Source: a virus
Virus record (IMG/VR): IMGVR_UViG_3300021963_006854
Coordinates: 1-21,232 of that record
DNA: 21,232 nt
Strand: one strand, 5' to 3'
Position numbers and translations under genes: made by a program
Shown: in pieces, positions 1 to 20,097 of the stretch
How positions within the stretch are numbered: the first letter of the stretch is position 1
Layout: every line of letters begins with the position of its first letter
The notes under the pieces: model-generated
Told to the model about the DNA's origin: nothing
Seen by the model: only the letters and a program-made list of their open reading frames with translations
Database searches by the model: none

Positions 1-403
1 TACCAGAGCTTCCACTAGAGCCGCTGCTACCTGAACTGCCGCTAGAGCCACTTCTACCAGAAGTTCCACTTGTACCACTGCTACCAGAGCTTCCACTAGA
101 ACCACTGCTACCAGAGCTTCCACTAGAACCACTGCTACCAGAGCTTCCACTAGAACCACTGCTACCAGAACTTCCACTAGAACCACTGCTACCAGAGCTT
201 CCACTAGAACCACTGCTACCAGAGCTTCCACTTGCACCATTAGTACCTGAAGTTCCATCTATACCACTAGTACCTGAACTTCCACTTGAACCACTAGTAC
301 CAGAAATGCCATCGATTACACTTGTTGTAATATTTTTTGGCGGAGCAATTACTACGTTAACCTCATTAGAATTTGAATTTACTGTAATATCAAAATTAGC
401 CAT
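1..403 (-). CDS. Collagen-like (Gly-X-Y) fibre protein, 3' end beyond the window
   Basis: The gene starts at 403 and runs off the left edge, so only the N-terminal 134 residues are visible. Residues 1-31 are a non-repetitive, beta-prone leader. From Gly32 onward every third residue is glycine, and the X and Y positions are almost all Ser or Thr (GSS, GTS, with rare GID, GTN, GAS). Such Gly-X-Y runs form collagen-like triple helices and are common in phage tail or head fibres, so a trimeric virion fibre is the likely role. The start lies one base after the stop of the 405-734 gene, indicating translational coupling. The Ser/Thr density makes it a possible O-glycosylation substrate for the sugar-transfer genes in this window, which is inference. 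The missing C-terminal part would normally hold the receptor-binding or trimerisation domain. Confidence 0.8.
   Translation of the reverse strand, partial: MANFDITVNSNSNEVNVVIAPPKNITTSVIDGISGTSGSSGSSGTSGIDGTSGTNGASGSSGSSGSSGSSGSSGSSGSSGSSGSSGSSGSSGSSGSSGSSGSSGSSGSSGTSGTSGRSGSSGSSGSSGSSGSSG
74..235. repeat. Six tandem copies of a 27-bp repeat encoding (Gly-Ser-Ser)3
   Basis: Six head-to-tail 27-bp units (74-100, 101-127, 128-154, 155-181, 182-208, 209-235) are nearly identical. The fourth unit has one internal change and the sixth differs in its last bases. Each unit encodes nine residues, three Gly-Ser-Ser triplets, on the minus strand. The DNA identity is higher than the protein repeat requires, which suggests recent duplication and possible length variation by recombination or slippage. 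Confidence 0.9.
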
Positions 404-9689: not shown

Positions 9690-10262
9690 TTAATTATTAG
9701 GCGTTATGTAAATAATTCCACGTTTAGCTCCTTCAGAATACAAGTCATTATTATAAAAATAACTATAGTTATTATCATATATTTTATTTAACGAATCTTT
9801 TATCCAATCGATATTTAATATTTGATTATTCCAAGTATCATAACCTAGCGTTGAAGCACCAGGAACATAAAAATCATGAATAGCAATAATCGGTTTTAAA
9901 TTATATTCTTTAATCAAATTTAACTCATTAAGCAAAGGACAATGCTCATACCAATGGGCATCTAAATAAAAAATTGTATTGCCAGTTAATTTATTTAATA
10001 TTGCTGGTAAAATATTTTCACTTTTACCGTGAATAAGAGTGGGATTTAAATTTTTATTTTTTAAATAAGCTGCGGCTTTATTTATAAAATCATAATTTGA
10101 TTCAATTGAATATACTGTATTAAAATTTTCGGATAAAAACGCAGTAGTTCCTCCTTCAAAAGTTCCAGTTTCGACTGCGTTTAAAATATTATATTTTTCT
10201 TTTAATTTTAAAAAAGTATTTGCTATATATTTGTCGTTATTGAATGGTTGATCGAAGTACAT
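9690..10262 (-). CDS. Class I SAM-dependent methyltransferase
   Basis: This 190-residue protein has a Rossmann methyltransferase pattern. The SAM-binding motif I is AVETGTFEGGTT (29-40), followed by an acidic residue at the end of strand 2 (SIES, Glu54). YLDAHWYEH (99-107) and IAIHDFYVPG (126-135) supply Asp/His residues that may bind metal. This arrangement resembles small O-methyltransferases acting on sugars or natural products rather than DNA methylases, since no DPPY-type motif is present. The gene is tightly coupled: two bases to the nuclease gene downstream and one base after the upstream stop. It may cap glycans made by the glycosyltransferases in this window, which is inference. It may otherwise be a moron carried in the packaging block. 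Confidence 0.75.
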   Translation of the reverse strand: MYFDQPFNNDKYIANTFLKLKEKYNILNAVETGTFEGGTTAFLSENFNTVYSIESNYDFINKAAAYLKNKNLNPTLIHGKSENILPAILNKLTGNTIFYLDAHWYEHCPLLNELNLIKEYNLKPIIAIHDFYVPGASTLGYDTWNNQILNIDWIKDSLNKIYDNNYSYFYNNDLYSEGAKRGIIYITPNN

Positions 10263-13232: not shown

Positions 13233-14291
13233 ATGGTTTTTCACTGTTTGAGTATTCCATATTCACCGACAAGAAAAGATATTTCTTTGTGCGCCTTCGT
13301 TCAAAAGGTTTATAAATTTTGTGAAGAAATGACTAAAAGAGGTCACACTGTTTATCATTATGGTCATGAAGACTCTAGTGTTAATTGCACAGAACATATT
13401 AATGTTATTAATAATGATATATTAAAAGAGAGTTATGGCAACTTAAATGATTGGAAAGAGAAAGGATTTGATCAAAACGTAGGAACTAAAGCTATTAGTA
13501 TCTTTAACAATAATTGCATTATTGAATTAACAAAAAGAATAAAATCTAATAACGAATTTATATTATGTTGGTTTGGATTTGCTCATGAACCATGTGTAAA
13601 ACATTTTTATAATAAAGCTATAGTTGTAGAACCAAGTATTGGTTACGACAGCATGTTTGCACCTATTAAAATATTTGAAACGCATAGTCAAATGCATAAA
13701 ATGCACGGCCATTCATGTACACATATAGGTTTGGGATCTGAATTTGTAGTTTATCCAGGTTTTGATCCTAATGATTTTTTATATAAAAAAGAAAAATCAA
13801 ATACGGCTTTGTTTCTTGGTAGAATTATAGAAGAAAAGGGAGCTAAACTTGTATATGATATATGCAACGATTTAAAACAAGATATAATTTTTGCTGGTCC
13901 AAACATACTTGGCTTAAAAGATACTAAATATTGTCAATTTGTTGGCTTTATTGATCCAATTAAAAGAATGCATTTGCTTAGTGACGCAAAATTTTTATTT
14001 GCTCCTTCATTATTTGTCGAACCCTGTAATTGGACTGTTATTGAAGCTCAATTTTCAGGAACTCCTACAATAACAACAAATTTTGGAGGCTTTACTGAAA
14101 CTATATCCCAAGCAGAAACTGGATTAAGATGTTCTACCATAAATGATATTGTTTATGCCGTCCAAAATATTAATAAATTTATTAATCCAGAAAATTGCTA
14201 TAAAAATGCAATTTCAAGATTCACGTTAGAGAAGCAGTGTGATTATTACCAACATATTTTTCATAACCTATCTTTAACTCAGACAAATTAG
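13233..14291 (+). CDS. GT4-type (GT-B fold) glycosyltransferase
   Basis: This 352-residue enzyme probably transfers a sugar from a nucleotide-activated donor. The N-terminal half has the acceptor-side pattern MTKRGHTVYHYG (33-44). The C-terminal half has donor-binding signatures: FLGRIIEEKG (194-203) and the E-x7-E retaining GT4 motif (Glu263-Glu271 in VEPCNWTVIEA), followed by SGTPTITTNFGGFTE (275-289). It is intact and close to the size of phage GT4 enzymes. It is the only plus-strand gene inside the minus-strand block, lying between phoH and the small 127-residue gene. Its last 71 bases overlap the end of the latter in antisense. It is likely part of the same glycosylation function as the large glycosyltransferase, though separately regulated. 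Confidence 0.88.
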   Translation: MVFHCLSIPYSPTRKDISLCAFVQKVYKFCEEMTKRGHTVYHYGHEDSSVNCTEHINVINNDILKESYGNLNDWKEKGFDQNVGTKAISIFNNNCIIELTKRIKSNNEFILCWFGFAHEPCVKHFYNKAIVVEPSIGYDSMFAPIKIFETHSQMHKMHGHSCTHIGLGSEFVVYPGFDPNDFLYKKEKSNTALFLGRIIEEKGAKLVYDICNDLKQDIIFAGPNILGLKDTKYCQFVGFIDPIKRMHLLSDAKFLFAPSLFVEPCNWTVIEAQFSGTPTITTNFGGFTETISQAETGLRCSTINDIVYAVQNINKFINPENCYKNAISRFTLEKQCDYYQHIFHNLSLTQTN

Positions 14292-14615: not shown

Positions 14616-17600
14616 TTAAAAATTTTTTACTCTTTTATCTATAAAAGATTCACCATCATACTGTGAGGCGAATCTATTGAATACGATACCCATTTTTAAA
14701 TTATTATTATAACAAAAATCATTAAACCAACCATCTATCACATACCAAGGTTTATTTTTAAAATCTTCTATAAGTAAATTTCTTATATTTTTATTAAACA
14801 TTAAGCACTGACTTCCAATTATTTTATCAGTAATATAACATAAACCTTGATCTTTAGGAATTTCAACTATTGATGATTGTAAAATTCTGCTTTCAAGCGT
14901 TTTAGAATCGCCAAATGAAAAGTATGAAATATTTTCCTTCTCGCAAATTTCAGTTATCTTTCCAAGATATTTAATAAAGTCTTCATGACTTATTTCAAAT
15001 AAACAGTCTCCTTCACATGTTATTAAAAAATCTGTATCATCATTAAATTCTTTTAATATAGCTTTTCTATATGAATCAAAACATCCATAATGTCTATTTG
15101 TAAGCCTATCATCACTATCAGCATTTAATAATTTTGGATATTTACAATTAACAAAATGATCATATCCATCATATAATTTATTTTTAATATTGATATATTC
15201 AACACCAAAATTCTTGAATTTTTCTATAAAAGCTTGAGATTTTTTTTCATTTTCTGTGTTTATAGTTGTCTGCAAATGAACAATCTTAATTTTTTTATGT
15301 TTATTTTTTAATTCGTCAATTATTATATCAATTTTTTCCATAATTTGATCTTCATTAATATTTTTTGAACATTCAAAATTTTTATTTTCTGGACACCAAT
15401 TCCAAAGAGAAGCGTCGAAATTATATTTTTTATTATTAAAACATCCATTGCATACCTTATCATTAAAAACAGTATATGGAGAAAAAAATTCAAATTGCGG
15501 AGTTACAGATGAGTTTATTTTTATTATCTTTTTATTTAGAGACCAAGCTAACCATGATAAACCCGAACTTAAACCTATAAAAAATTCACAATTATTAATA
15601 ATATCTATTACATTATCAAAATCGCTGTTTCCAACAAATTCATCAATATTAATTGGACATGTATTAATGAATTTATCCTTGCCAAATGAAAAATGTTTAT
15701 CAACGCATATTACTTTATAGCCTTTATTTTTGAGATAATCTATAATTTTCTCCCAACCTTGTTTTTTATTCCAATAACGTGATTGAGACGTTGATTGCAT
15801 TGCTATACATACATATTTTTCATATTTTAATTTATATTTATTAGGAACATTAACTTTAGTTTTTTCAATTGGAACATCGATATTTAAAATTCTACCAGCT
15901 ATTTGTTGTAAAGATATTTCTCTCCAGTCTACAGGAATTTTACTCCCAAACTCAAAACAACCAATTTGAAAATTAGCATAATAATGAACAAAAGTTTCAT
16001 CTTCATAATTATAAAAATTAATGTTAGGATATTGTTTATCAAATAAATTTTTTTTAGGAGTAAAATAATGAACTATACAATCATGTTTCTTTTGAAATTC
16101 ATTAATTATAGGCATCCATGCAATAGAATCTCCTAAACTTCCAGATTCATTTGTAATTTTTATTACTTTTTTATTTAAATCGAAATTAAATATTTTTTCA
16201 ATTCCGTATTTAATATTAGTTACAACTATTTTCCATTTGCAATAGTAACTTGTAGAGCAAGCTGTCCAATGATTGGTTCGTATATTAGATTGGAAATGAA
16301 TTGATCCTGTAAGCTCATCAATAAATTTTACATTATATACGATATCTTCTTTTCCATTTATTTCTATAGTTGGCGTTGGTGTAAATCTACATTGTATATT
16401 ATTAGGCTCAGTATCCTGTTCGATAAAAAAAGTATAATTATTTTTATTATTAATTGGTAATTTTTCAAACAAGTAGCGTTCCAAATTGTTATTTTTTATA
16501 AATTTTAAATTATCGTTTTCTGAATAAATTGATCTGAGTGTGTTAATGTCAGATATAAAACACATCATATTCCATGACAACGCTTCTTTTAATGAAATAG
16601 GATTTAATTCTTCAAATGATGGCAATACAAATACATCCATACAAGACATAAATACATCAACATCATTTCTTTCTCCCCAAATTTTACAATTTTCTAAATC
16701 TTTATTTAAATTACACTCATCAATATAACAACTGTTTCCTACAAAATGAAATTGTATATTTTTTCCTAAAAATTTAATCGCTAAATCAAAAATTGATTTT
16801 TGATTTTTATTTATAGAAAACAAACCAACTTGCAAAACATGTATTTTATTTGGATCTAAATTTAGATTTTTTAAAGTTAAATCTCTGTCTGGCCTAATTT
16901 TGACATTAATATTCATTTCTACAAGTCTAGATTTGATGTTTGTTGTTTTAATTTTTTGATATTGAAAATCACTAACAACCCATACTTCATCAGGTAAATT
17001 TAGTTTTTTTGTTACATCTGTTTTAGCTGAATGAGTAGTTTCGAATAATTTAAATTTTCTATTCTTATCGTATAAGAAAGATATTAATTCATTAGTTAAA
17101 TTAGCTATAGCAAAATTCTCACTAAACTCATTCAAATGAATAAAATCAGGATCAAAATTTTTAATATATTCAATTACAAATTTAGTTTGTTCTTCAAAAT
17201 AATTTTTATCTTGAGTATAATGTCCAACGCTTAGAAAATTAGTTTCGCCAATCATTCTTATAATTTCATTTCTTTGAACAATATAAGTTGGACTATATAA
17301 ATTCCACTCAATTACTTTTATATCAAAACCTTCTTTAATTTTATTTGATATTAGCCATTCTAAATACTTGGGACTTCCGCCAGTAGATAAATGAGGAGCT
17401 ATAAAAAGAAATCGCTTTTTATTAACCAATATATTCTTTTCTTTATCTGATGATATGTAATTGATCACATTTTGTGGCGATGGATGACATTCAAAACTAG
17501 ATTTATTTTCTAAACAGTTAATTAATGGAGGAACGCCTTGAATCGTCTTCCATTCTTTTACTCCATATTTCATGTCTGAAGCGCAAAAAATGTTACAAGA

Positions 17601-19286
17601 TCCACTAATATACTTGTATTTATATGATTGAGATCCTTTTCTATATGGGGCGCGTAATTTATTATTAATTGATGAGCCTAGTTGAATTATTTCAGCATCG
17701 GTAGTTCCAGCAAGATGCAATAAACCAGAATCCATAGTAATAAAATACTTAGATTTATTTATAACATGCCAACATTGTGAAATAGAAAGTTTATTAGTTA
17801 AATCTAATCCATTCAAAAAATTTAATTTTTTAGTTGGTTTTTCTATATTATAAAAACCAGATTCATAAGCATTTTTACCAATTAAAACTACAGAAAAACC
17901 TTTTTGATTTATTAGATTTATCAAAGTTTGCCAATTTTCATCTGAATAAGTTCTTGAAGGCCAAGTATTGGCAACATGCAAACAAATATAATTTTCTGGT
18001 AAATTATTTATTTCTATATAATCATTTGCTATATAGTCATACTCCATTTCATTTTCATGGAGCATAAACCCTAAATCTATAGCATGAAATTGTCTAATAT
18101 CTATAGTATTGTGCTTCTTCTCAACACCGTATTTATTTTTCTCTCCACCTAATCCTAAAAATGTATTAAAAATTTCTTTATACTTATTTTCATTAATTTT
18201 TTCATCAAAAGCGAAAACTTTATTAACATACTTATTATTTAAAAATAATTCTGGATGATATGTAACAACATCTATTTTTTTATCATAAGAATTATACAGT
18301 TTACGCAATGTTGGCGTAGCGGCTAAAGTATCACCAAGAGATACTGAATTTATTTTTAATAAAAAATTAGAAGTCATTGTTTGTATAATATAATTATATT
18401 CATCATCAGAAATTTTACCATGATAAAAATATAAATTTTTGATATTTTCAATCGAAGGAATTCTGCAAAAAGTGTCTATAAAATAATCTTCATGACGTAA
18501 ATTTTTAAGACTATTTAACATTTCTTTTATTTTTTGTAATGATTTGGCATAATCGTAATTATTATATGGCAAATTAATTAAAGATTGAGATAAATCTACG
18601 ATAGATGATTTTTGCCACATCAAACAGTTTGCAACAGTCTCTTCATGAAAAGGAGCTATATATTTCCAATTTTCAACCACTTCTTTTTTTATACAAATAT
18701 TAATCCATTCATTAAAAAAATTTTTACATTTATTATTAAATAGAAATATACCTGTTTGCAAATACTGTTTTCTTATACCAACATCTAATCCCATTAAATT
18801 CATAAGATCAGCCTCCAAACAAAGTTTTAAATCATATCCATTGTTTATAAATGGATCTCCTCTTCCATTAATTAACATGAAGTCATGACAGCCTTTATTA
18901 AATAAAGGATAATCTATTATTAAAGATGATTTATCGAAAATATTATCACAATTATTAATCGCTAAACAATCAGCATCTAAATAACAAAAATTATTTTTAA
19001 CATCTGATTCTGTAGACAACAACTCTCTCATTAAAAATGGTTTCAAAAATACGTTATAAGCCTTTGTAGTCTCTTCAATAGAAGAATATTTGCTATAACG
19101 TTCAAAATTATGCAAATAAATTTTAGAATTTACTTCAATCGGTATGACGTTAGTGAATTTAGATTTATAGTTGAAATCTACTGTATAAAAAATTATTTTA
19201 TTGTTAGAAAATAATGATAAAGTTTCAAAAAGACGTTCAGCATATTTTAAAAAATGCACATCACAATGAGTAACGAAATAATTCAT
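14616..19286 (-). CDS. Five-module glycosyltransferase polyprotein including an autotransporter-heptosyltransferase-like module
   Basis: One 1556-residue frame holds five apparent sugar-transfer modules. Residues 1-300: GT-A fold with the metal-binding D-A-D at 104-106. Residues 308-610: GT9-like heptosyltransferase (SLGDTLAATPTLRKL, 316-330; MDSGLLHLAGT, 518-528) with four Cys at 564, 568, 591 and 600. Residues 622-945: GT4-like, with GLFSINKNQKS (821-831) and E-x7-E (Glu893-Glu901). Residues 960-1330: a beta segment plus GT9-like domain resembling bacterial autotransporter heptosyltransferases (SLGDSIAWMP, 1050-1059; RYWNKKQGWEKI, 1170-1181; SSGLSWLAWSL, 1240-1250) with CxxC, Cys and Cys at 1279, 1282, 1298 and 1306. 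Residues 1333-1556: GT-A/GT25-like with E-G-D at 1425-1427. No signal peptide or transmembrane helix is seen. It may assemble a short glycan on phage or host proteins or surface. The start lies one base after the epimerase stop. Confidence 0.88.
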   Translation of the reverse strand: MNYFVTHCDVHFLKYAERLFETLSLFSNNKIIFYTVDFNYKSKFTNVIPIEVNSKIYLHNFERYSKYSSIEETTKAYNVFLKPFLMRELLSTESDVKNNFCYLDADCLAINNCDNIFDKSSLIIDYPLFNKGCHDFMLINGRGDPFINNGYDLKLCLEADLMNLMGLDVGIRKQYLQTGIFLFNNKCKNFFNEWINICIKKEVVENWKYIAPFHEETVANCLMWQKSSIVDLSQSLINLPYNNYDYAKSLQKIKEMLNSLKNLRHEDYFIDTFCRIPSIENIKNLYFYHGKISDDEYNYIIQTMTSNFLLKINSVSLGDTLAATPTLRKLYNSYDKKIDVVTYHPELFLNNKYVNKVFAFDEKINENKYKEIFNTFLGLGGEKNKYGVEKKHNTIDIRQFHAIDLGFMLHENEMEYDYIANDYIEINNLPENYICLHVANTWPSRTYSDENWQTLINLINQKGFSVVLIGKNAYESGFYNIEKPTKKLNFLNGLDLTNKLSISQCWHVINKSKYFITMDSGLLHLAGTTDAEIIQLGSSINNKLRAPYRKGSQSYKYKYISGSCNIFCASDMKYGVKEWKTIQGVPPLINCLENKSSFECHPSPQNVINYISSDKEKNILVNKKRFLFIAPHLSTGGSPKYLEWLISNKIKEGFDIKVIEWNLYSPTYIVQRNEIIRMIGETNFLSVGHYTQDKNYFEEQTKFVIEYIKNFDPDFIHLNEFSENFAIANLTNELISFLYDKNRKFKLFETTHSAKTDVTKKLNLPDEVWVVSDFQYQKIKTTNIKSRLVEMNINVKIRPDRDLTLKNLNLDPNKIHVLQVGLFSINKNQKSIFDLAIKFLGKNIQFHFVGNSCYIDECNLNKDLENCKIWGERNDVDVFMSCMDVFVLPSFEELNPISLKEALSWNMMCFISDINTLRSIYSENDNLKFIKNNNLERYLFEKLPINNKNNYTFFIEQDTEPNNIQCRFTPTPTIEINGKEDIVYNVKFIDELTGSIHFQSNIRTNHWTACSTSYYCKWKIVVTNIKYGIEKIFNFDLNKKVIKITNESGSLGDSIAWMPIINEFQKKHDCIVHYFTPKKNLFDKQYPNINFYNYEDETFVHYYANFQIGCFEFGSKIPVDWREISLQQIAGRILNIDVPIEKTKVNVPNKYKLKYEKYVCIAMQSTSQSRYWNKKQGWEKIIDYLKNKGYKVICVDKHFSFGKDKFINTCPINIDEFVGNSDFDNVIDIINNCEFFIGLSSGLSWLAWSLNKKIIKINSSVTPQFEFFSPYTVFNDKVCNGCFNNKKYNFDASLWNWCPENKNFECSKNINEDQIMEKIDIIIDELKNKHKKIKIVHLQTTINTENEKKSQAFIEKFKNFGVEYINIKNKLYDGYDHFVNCKYPKLLNADSDDRLTNRHYGCFDSYRKAILKEFNDDTDFLITCEGDCLFEISHEDFIKYLGKITEICEKENISYFSFGDSKTLESRILQSSIVEIPKDQGLCYITDKIIGSQCLMFNKNIRNLLIEDFKNKPWYVIDGWFNDFCYNNNLKMGIVFNRFASQYDGESFIDKRVKNF

Positions 19287-19287
19287 A

Positions 19288-20097
19288 TTAAATAATTGTA
19301 TTTATCTTAGTAATATTCGCGCACGAATGTCGAACTTCTTTTTTTGCTTCCTTATATATGATATCATTTCCAAACTGTTTTGCTAGTGTGTTTATAGAAA
19401 TAGAATTGCCGGTCCCAATATTAAATATTTCATTTTTTATATTTTTATTTATAAGGTTAGATATGTGATTACATGTATCGCTAACGCTTATAAAATCTCT
19501 TGTTTGTTCGCCATCGCCATATATAATTAAAGATTCATTCTTTTGTTTAGCAAGATTAAATGCAGTTATTACGCCAGCATATTCAAGATTTTGACCAATA
19601 CCATATACATTAAATAAACGTAGTATTAAATAATCGATATTCCATAATTGACAATACATTTGTATATATTTTTCGGATACTAATTTATCTAATCCATATG
19701 GACTATTCGGCTCTGTAGAATCTGTTTCGCTAACAGTTCCTTCTTTATCACCATACACTGCTGCGCTAGATGAGAATATAAATTTTTTAATATTATGGAG
19801 TTTGGCGGCTGATAATATTTTTATAGTCAAGAATGTATTATTGCCGAAACTATTCACTGGATCATCAAATGATCGCGGCACACTTACCATTGCAGCAAGA
19901 TGAATGATACAATCTATATTCTTAAATATATTATCATTAATATCAACATCTAATATGTCTATGATTTTTTGCCGATGATCGGGAAGTGCGGGGCTGGGAA
20001 TTTTATCTAGATTGTATATTTCGTGTCCATCATTCAACAGCCTATTTATTAAATGAGTGCCTATGAAACCTGAACCCCCAGTAACTAATACGCGCAT
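19288..20097 (-). CDS. NAD-dependent sugar-nucleotide epimerase/dehydratase (SDR), C-terminally short
   Basis: This 269-residue extended short-chain dehydrogenase resembles UDP-glucose 4-epimerase. It has the NAD-binding motif TGGSGFIG (6-13), an acidic residue ending strand 2 (Asp31), the catalytic region FSSSAAVYG (108-116) and YxxxK (Tyr134, Lys138). Family members usually run to about 300-320 residues. Here the chain ends just after the conserved EVRHSCANITK segment, so roughly 40 C-terminal residues are missing and no downstream remnant is visible. It would supply a modified sugar nucleotide to the glycosyltransferase encoded one base downstream (TAA-T-ATG). The active site looks complete, so it may still function. 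It starts beside a TATAAT box and a 12-bp palindrome. Confidence 0.85.
   Translation of the reverse strand: MRVLVTGGSGFIGTHLINRLLNDGHEIYNLDKIPSPALPDHRQKIIDILDVDINDNIFKNIDCIIHLAAMVSVPRSFDDPVNSFGNNTFLTIKILSAAKLHNIKKFIFSSSAAVYGDKEGTVSETDSTEPNSPYGLDKLVSEKYIQMYCQLWNIDYLILRLFNVYGIGQNLEYAGVITAFNLAKQKNESLIIYGDGEQTRDFISVSDTCNHISNLINKNIKNEIFNIGTGNSISINTLAKQFGNDIIYKEAKKEVRHSCANITKINTII

Follow-up and report, generated by a model that had tools for sequence, protein, structure and literature searches.

Enzymes of the BAHT (TibC/AAH) type are virulence-linked modifiers of bacterial adhesins, and the locus considered here raises the question of what such an enzyme is doing in a phage and which protein it would modify. 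The window, meaning the whole 21,232-nt (21.2 kb) stretch of viral DNA that was analysed, comes from a virus record with terminase and PhoH genes, where head genes can be assigned by position only, and it contains an ORF of 1556 amino acids that joins several glycosyltransferase modules (Table 1). The sequence-only reading had placed an autotransporter-heptosyltransferase-like module with an intact cysteine finger at residues 960-1330 of this ORF; the coordinates it gave, for the module and for each cysteine, are exact. The epimerase/dehydratase gene that adjoins the glycosyltransferase gene possibly serves it by donor modification. Elsewhere in the window, an ORF of 190 aa (9690-10262, minus strand) has no PHROGs match and no counterpart among the ORFs listed for the corresponding stretch at the related loci L004 and L005.

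Table 1. Features of the window, with coordinates, strand and basis of assignment.
Feature	Coordinates	Strand	Basis
Collagen-like tail fibre, N-terminal part, proposed acceptor; Gly-X-Ser tract at 2-310	2-403	-	PF01391 Collagen and PF13884 Peptidase_S74
Separate GT4 glycosyltransferase, opposite strand	13233-14291	+	PF00534
Multi-domain glycosyltransferase ORF, 1556 aa	14616-19286	-	ORF call and domain profiles
ORF residues 1-308	18363-19286	-	No family match at meaningful level
GT9-like second module, residues 309-622, no beta-barrel, own cysteine quartet	17421-18362	-	Profiles, structure
GT4 module, residues 621-959, directly N-terminal to the BAHT module	16410-17426	-	PF00534
BAHT/TibC-like module, residues 960-1330	15297-16409	-	TIGR04414, 4RAP match, TM to TibC
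C-terminal ORF residues 1331-1556	14619-15296	-	No family match at meaningful level
N-terminal beta-barrel strands, residues 963-1034	16185-16400	-	Model strands E4-E75; aligned to TibC from its residue 41
Asp1053, equivalent of TibC catalytic base Asp110	16128-16130	-	Alignments; role from PMC4358343
Thr1166, equivalent of TibC Thr226 (donor contact)	15789-15791	-	Alignment
Arg1170, replaces TibC Lys230	15777-15779	-	Alignment
Beta-hairpin at the place of the TibC thumb, residues 1200-1209	15660-15689	-	Model strands 241-244/247-250
Val1226, replaces adenine-contacting TibC Arg286	15609-15611	-	Alignment
Ser1240, at the TibC Pro300/AAH Ser294 position (donor stereoselectivity)	15567-15569	-	Alignment; role from PMC4358343
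Trp1245, equivalent of TibC sugar-binding Trp305	15552-15554	-	Alignment
Iron-finger cysteines Cys1279, Cys1282, Cys1298 and Cys1306	15369-15452	-	Residue mapping, alignment
NAD-dependent sugar epimerase/dehydratase, adjoins the glycosyltransferase gene	19288-20097	-	PF01370, E 2e-54

Both profile and structure searches assign the module to the TibC/AAH family. In particular, it matches NCBIfam TIGR04414 (hepto_Aah_TibC, an equivalog with a curated cut-off of 200 bits) at 281.4 bits (E 1e-83; 306 bits for the whole protein); in contrast, Pfam GT9 reaches only 33.8 bits, and the LPS heptosyltransferase profiles (WaaC/WaaF, generic GT9) reach at most 22 bits against cut-offs of 135-569. A sequence search of the PDB with the module returns TibC (4RAP; E 8.5e-57, query residues 25-356 covered) and nothing significant besides the two TibC entries. 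An AlphaFold2 model of the module, built from 63 relatives (pLDDT 95.8, pTM 0.92), retrieves TibC first in Foldseek (E 8e-38, TM 0.92, rmsd about 2.1 Å), followed by non-TibC GT9 enzymes with TM values of at most 0.54. Along the predicted hairpin, the TibC thumb-tip residues F265/V266 are replaced by K/F in the window module. The claimed resemblance to TibC/Aah along the length of the module is thus borne out, both by the profile search and by the superposition that had been proposed as checks on it. The profile search did not favour generic GT9 enzymes alone, an outcome that would have spoken against the resemblance; whether the four cysteines cluster in the predicted model is answered only indirectly, through its close superposition on TibC.

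Published TibC residues were mapped onto an alignment of 181 viral and bacterial sequences. The TibC iron ligands Cys339, Cys342, Cys358 and Cys370 have spacings of 3, 16 and 12 (PMC4358343), compared with 3, 16 and 8 in the window, and the last spacing is 8 in many phages. The four cysteines are aligned in all of the 79 other viral, 7 GSS-selected viral and 93 bacterial sequences. The TibC spacings of 3 and 19 given in the sequence-only reading are right for the first three cysteines, as is its remark that the fourth lies closer. The Asp110 and Trp305 equivalents are invariant across every viral and bacterial sequence compared. However, the full TibC donor-binding set (Thr226, Lys230, Arg286 and Trp305) is not met, where threonine and tryptophan are kept and the other two positions carry K230R and R286V. 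At the Lys230 position, arginine occurs in 7 of the 79 other viral sequences and lysine in 72; Arg286 is kept in 92 of 93 bacterial sequences versus 46 of 86 viral ones (Fisher p 2e-14). Replacing Lys230 or Arg286 of TibC by alanine abolishes or largely diminishes its activity, and a P300S mutation lets TibC take both ADP-D,D- and ADP-L,D-heptose (PMC4358343). Because of K230R and R286V, the module is filed as a family variant rather than as a functional TibC equivalent, and an ADP-heptose donor is an inference only. Overall, the evidence supports a genuine but variant BAHT module that is carried by a phage and keeps all four cysteines.

The GT9-like module at residues 309-622 is structurally closest to TibC (TM 0.60-0.67) and to the Veillonella GT9 enzyme 3TOV (0.60-0.64), then to WaaC (about 0.5), and its profile matches are LPS heptosyltransferases, all below cut-off. 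It has a quartet of its own, C564-x3-C568-x22-C591-x8-C600 (17487-17597, minus strand), which an alignment of 28 phage relatives shows without exception; when the set is widened to 48 rows, C568 is kept in 30 and each of the other three columns in 45-47. The quartet is possibly another metal finger. It is conjecture that this module could extend a glycan begun by the BAHT module.

The window phage is not alone in carrying such a module. The statement that no described phage version was known holds to the extent that no paper was found on the UniProt protein named 'Glycosyltransferase Aah/TibC'; the name itself, together with at least 546 viral stretches in IMG/VR that encode relatives, rules out uniqueness. 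A literature search, which left out preprints and most subscription papers, found none that combines phage, collagen-like and heptosyltransferase. Among 50,697 annotated phage records, only 4 contain a relative, namely Microcystis phage Mel-JY01 and three uncultured phage records (636-735 kb). In Mel-JY01 (PP395634.1, 4750-8430), a gene annotated as 'methyltransferase FkbM' contains GT4 and BAHT, the latter at 320 bits, so that the annotation is incomplete. Viral BAHT modules are mostly fused to other glycosyltransferases, with 77 of 115 viral open frames longer than 600 aa versus 2 of 94 bacterial ones (not dereplicated), and a GT4 module directly preceding the BAHT module, as in the window, recurs in phage relatives. 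Ten loci (L019, L020, L022, L025-L028, L033, L056 and L068) have ORFs of about 284-309 aa with a BAHT-like catalytic domain, without the beta-barrel, and with another BAHT in the locus. A quick maximum-likelihood tree groups TibC, the bacterial sequences and a single viral contig (L091) in one clade (SH-aLRT 100) and leaves the remaining phage sequences outside it as a deep, diverse set. Since the bacterial sample comprised no more than the 80 loci closest to the phage query, and since the tree has an arbitrary root, no direction of transfer is claimed. Two sequences from bacterial assemblies (L093, Chloroflexi, and L094, uncultured bacterium) group among the phage rows and are probably phage contigs binned with hosts.

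What, then, would the module glycosylate? Partner autotransporter repeats were rejected as the acceptor, since a search of 13 phage records for the repeat family TIGR04415 at E ≤ 1 gave no match (the window record is a fragment). Hence the autotransporter label fits the type of module, while an autotransporter acceptor is unlikely, both from this absence and from a strong association with Gly-X-Ser tail fibres. Inspection of the flanks found collagen-like Gly-[Ser/Thr]-Ser ORFs near viral BAHT genes. The notion that the repeat always lies next to the enzyme did not survive, as the fetched flanks contain a tract at just 11 of the 91 viral BAHT loci (many are short contigs). Because the first sample overstated adjacency, contig-level tests with independent sampling were carried out. 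When contigs were picked solely by a (G[S/T]S)5 DNA pattern, TIGR04414 was present in 22 of 50, compared with 0 of 50 contigs picked by G-P-X or G-[A/D/E]-T collagen-like repeats (Fisher p 2e-8); below 46% GC, the counts are 19 of 43 Gly-X-Ser contigs versus 0 of 24 other-repeat contigs. In the reverse test, the repeat pattern occurs in 18 of 32 contigs chosen by BAHT versus 1 of 50 controls. A general richness in glycosyltransferases was considered as the cause of the association and is countered by counts restricted to GT4-bearing contigs, where BAHT is found in 21 of 25 Gly-X-Ser versus 0 of 6 other-repeat contigs. The samples were neither lineage-matched nor dereplicated, and the statistics ignore relatedness. 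Against the fibre reading, 14 of the 32 BAHT contigs lack the strict pattern and 28 of the 50 repeat contigs lack BAHT; most of these are fragments, but not all absences are so explained (the 636-kb LR756504 has no pattern match).

Moreover, BAHT and repeat ORFs lie on the same strand with gaps of 4-32 bp at loci from several tree clades (L008, L079, L094, L187, L244, L256 and L275), and several of the adjacent partner ORFs contain a Collagen domain together with Peptidase_S74 (L187, L244, L275) or with a T7 tail-fibre N-terminal domain (L256). This adjacency mirrors the bacterial gene order, where BAHT genes are often followed by the substrate (autotransporter) gene (PMC4358343). The gap is 4 bp in L094. 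At the BAHT loci L053-L055, collagen-like Gly-Tyr-Thr/Gly-Ala-Thr triplets replace Gly-X-Ser, possibly with Thr as the acceptor. All repeat-selected local hits lack Arg286; the proposal that loss of Arg286 marks repeat-associated phages was rejected, as repeat-positive contigs with Arg286 exist (L015, an L020 paralogue, L052, L071 and L089).

The window phage has a fibre of this kind. Contig L524, whose sequence is identical to the window over the 5296 bases that they share, carries the fibre product on to 1529 aa or more, with the frame still open where the contig stops. This product combines a 39-triplet and a 19-triplet tract with a long repeat body, which matches tail fibres annotated in phages, and with Peptidase_S74 at the C-terminus. 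Ser fills 55 of the 58 third positions of the triplets, and Ser or Thr fills 53 of the 58 second positions; in control collagen-like tracts, Ser makes up 5% of third positions and Pro is common at the second. Because TibC modifies Ser, not Thr (PMC4358343), the third-position Ser is the best candidate for an acceptor. Weighing against the fibre reading, the genes for fibre and enzyme are 14 kb apart in the window phage, and this clade has lost Arg286 and changed Lys230, two positions that matter for TibC activity.

For the donor, phage-encoded heptose synthesis was sought and largely dismissed. The 636-kb phage LR756504 has gmhA (sedoheptulose-7-phosphate isomerase; 430182-430640, 251 bits, over cut-off) 27 kb from its BAHT gene and with no recognisable heptose genes beside it, and one contig has a weak, sub-cut-off rfaE-II-like match. 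As hardly any phage heptose-synthesis genes were found, the host is assumed to supply the donor.

Because relatives in many phages adjoin or travel with Gly-X-Ser fibre genes, these results suggest that phages sugar-coat their own tail fibres, and the explanation that is probably correct, in the absence of biochemical evidence, is that the module is a Ser O-glycosyltransferase of BAHT type acting on the collagen-like tail fibre of its own phage; its activity, donor and metal are inferred. Glycosylation would take place in the infected cell, before virion assembly, most likely on the near-invariant third-position Ser of the Gly-[Ser/Thr]-Ser triplets, an acceptor site that is itself inferred. 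A nucleotide-activated sugar from the host (ADP-heptose or a relative) would bind between the two lobes, Asp1053 would activate the acceptor Ser, and a putative Fe(Cys)4 finger and the beta-barrel would hold a presumed oligomer together and keep the repeat substrate in place. The glycan may then be extended by the two other fused modules, GT4 and the second GT9, although this order of transfer is inferred as well. A broader proposal remains tentative: a phage-own BAHT branch would be dedicated to the third-position Ser of proline-poor collagen-like tail-fibre tracts, the sugar may stabilise the triple helix where proline/hydroxyproline is scarce, substituting for it, which is an inference, and clades without Arg286 may depend on some donor different from ADP-heptose.

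The contigs that lack the strict pattern also favour a rival reading in which another part of the virion is glycosylated, such as the NTTGxxNSAFGY repeats of the fibre, a capsid protein or some other structural protein, and in which the link to Gly-X-Ser merely reflects that both genes belong to the tail region of the same groups of aquatic phages. The window fibre indeed has a further long Asn/Thr/Ser-rich repeat stretch, and mycobacteriophage glycans are located on capsid and tail-tube subunits (Freeman et al. 2023, as cited in PMC12619734). However, fibres with AFGY-type repeats are found in, for example, Pelagibacter HTVC112P and Prochlorococcus P-SSM2 although BAHT is so rare among annotated phage records, and the adjacent partner ORFs have the collagen tract in common, while contigs with other collagen-like repeats lack BAHT; such a target is therefore considered unlikely.

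The make-up of the ORF and its surroundings also bears on remodelling of the host surface glycan (LPS or capsule), in the manner of phage seroconversion enzymes, by a BAHT enzyme that switched from a protein to a glycan acceptor. GT9 homologues are mostly LPS heptosyltransferases, whose profiles the second GT9 module matches, and an epimerase gene adjoins the 1556-aa gene; yet the module keeps the barrel and cysteine finger that are specific to BAHT and that in TibC serve assembly and recognition of the protein substrate, and its partner in the genome is a repeat protein and not a set of LPS genes, which makes a glycan acceptor improbable. A catalytically dead module, acting as a scaffold or binding domain, would account for R286V and K230R at donor-contact residues and has a precedent in Burkholderia BimC, described as a targeting factor for BimA that acts through its iron finger (PMC11499645). 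The retained equivalents of Asp110, Thr226 and Trp305, the conservative nature of K230R and the lysine kept in other phage clades leave little room for it. Glycosylation of the collagen-like tail fibre remains the preferred reading. If it is true, a wide phage BAHT branch tied to collagen-like fibres would be an enzyme-substrate pair for virion glycosylation; it could explain the almost pure Gly-X-Ser composition of some phage collagen tracts and would offer compact modules for glycosylating repeat peptides.

Glycosylated collagen-like proteins occur in bacteria and giant viruses, such as BclA and Mimivirus collagen, where a Gly-X-Y acceptor likewise has a partner glycosyltransferase. The enzyme families differ from those considered here, and the phage tract has little proline and carries Ser at position Y. 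In mycobacteriophages, phage glycosyltransferases also decorate virion proteins (Freeman et al. 2023, cited in PMC12619734 and PMC11256854); the sites are the C-termini of capsid and tail-tube subunits, and the available portions of the two citing articles mention neither BAHT nor a collagen-like acceptor. BFVD has the same module within two longer proteins of viral origin (924-985 aa), A0A6J5SVC1 ('Glycosyltransferase Aah/TibC', uncultured Caudovirales phage) and A0A7S9XE01 (Virus NIOZ-UU157), with TM values of 0.87-0.89 and 32-35% identity; these are database names only, for which no described function or acceptor was found. Compared with TibC of ETEC and AAH (TIGR04414; PDB 4RAP/4RB4; PMC4358343), the window module is phage-borne, fused into a multi-glycosyltransferase, altered at Arg286 and Lys230 and at the fourth cysteine spacing, placed outside the bacterial clade in the quick tree, and without autotransporter repeats in the 13 phage records. 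At the TibC Pro300 position it has Ser, like AAH. It has in common with this family the whole-length fold, barrel, four cysteines, catalytic Asp and Trp305, and a Ser-containing, repeat-rich protein as its likely acceptor; a hairpin is predicted at the place of the thumb.
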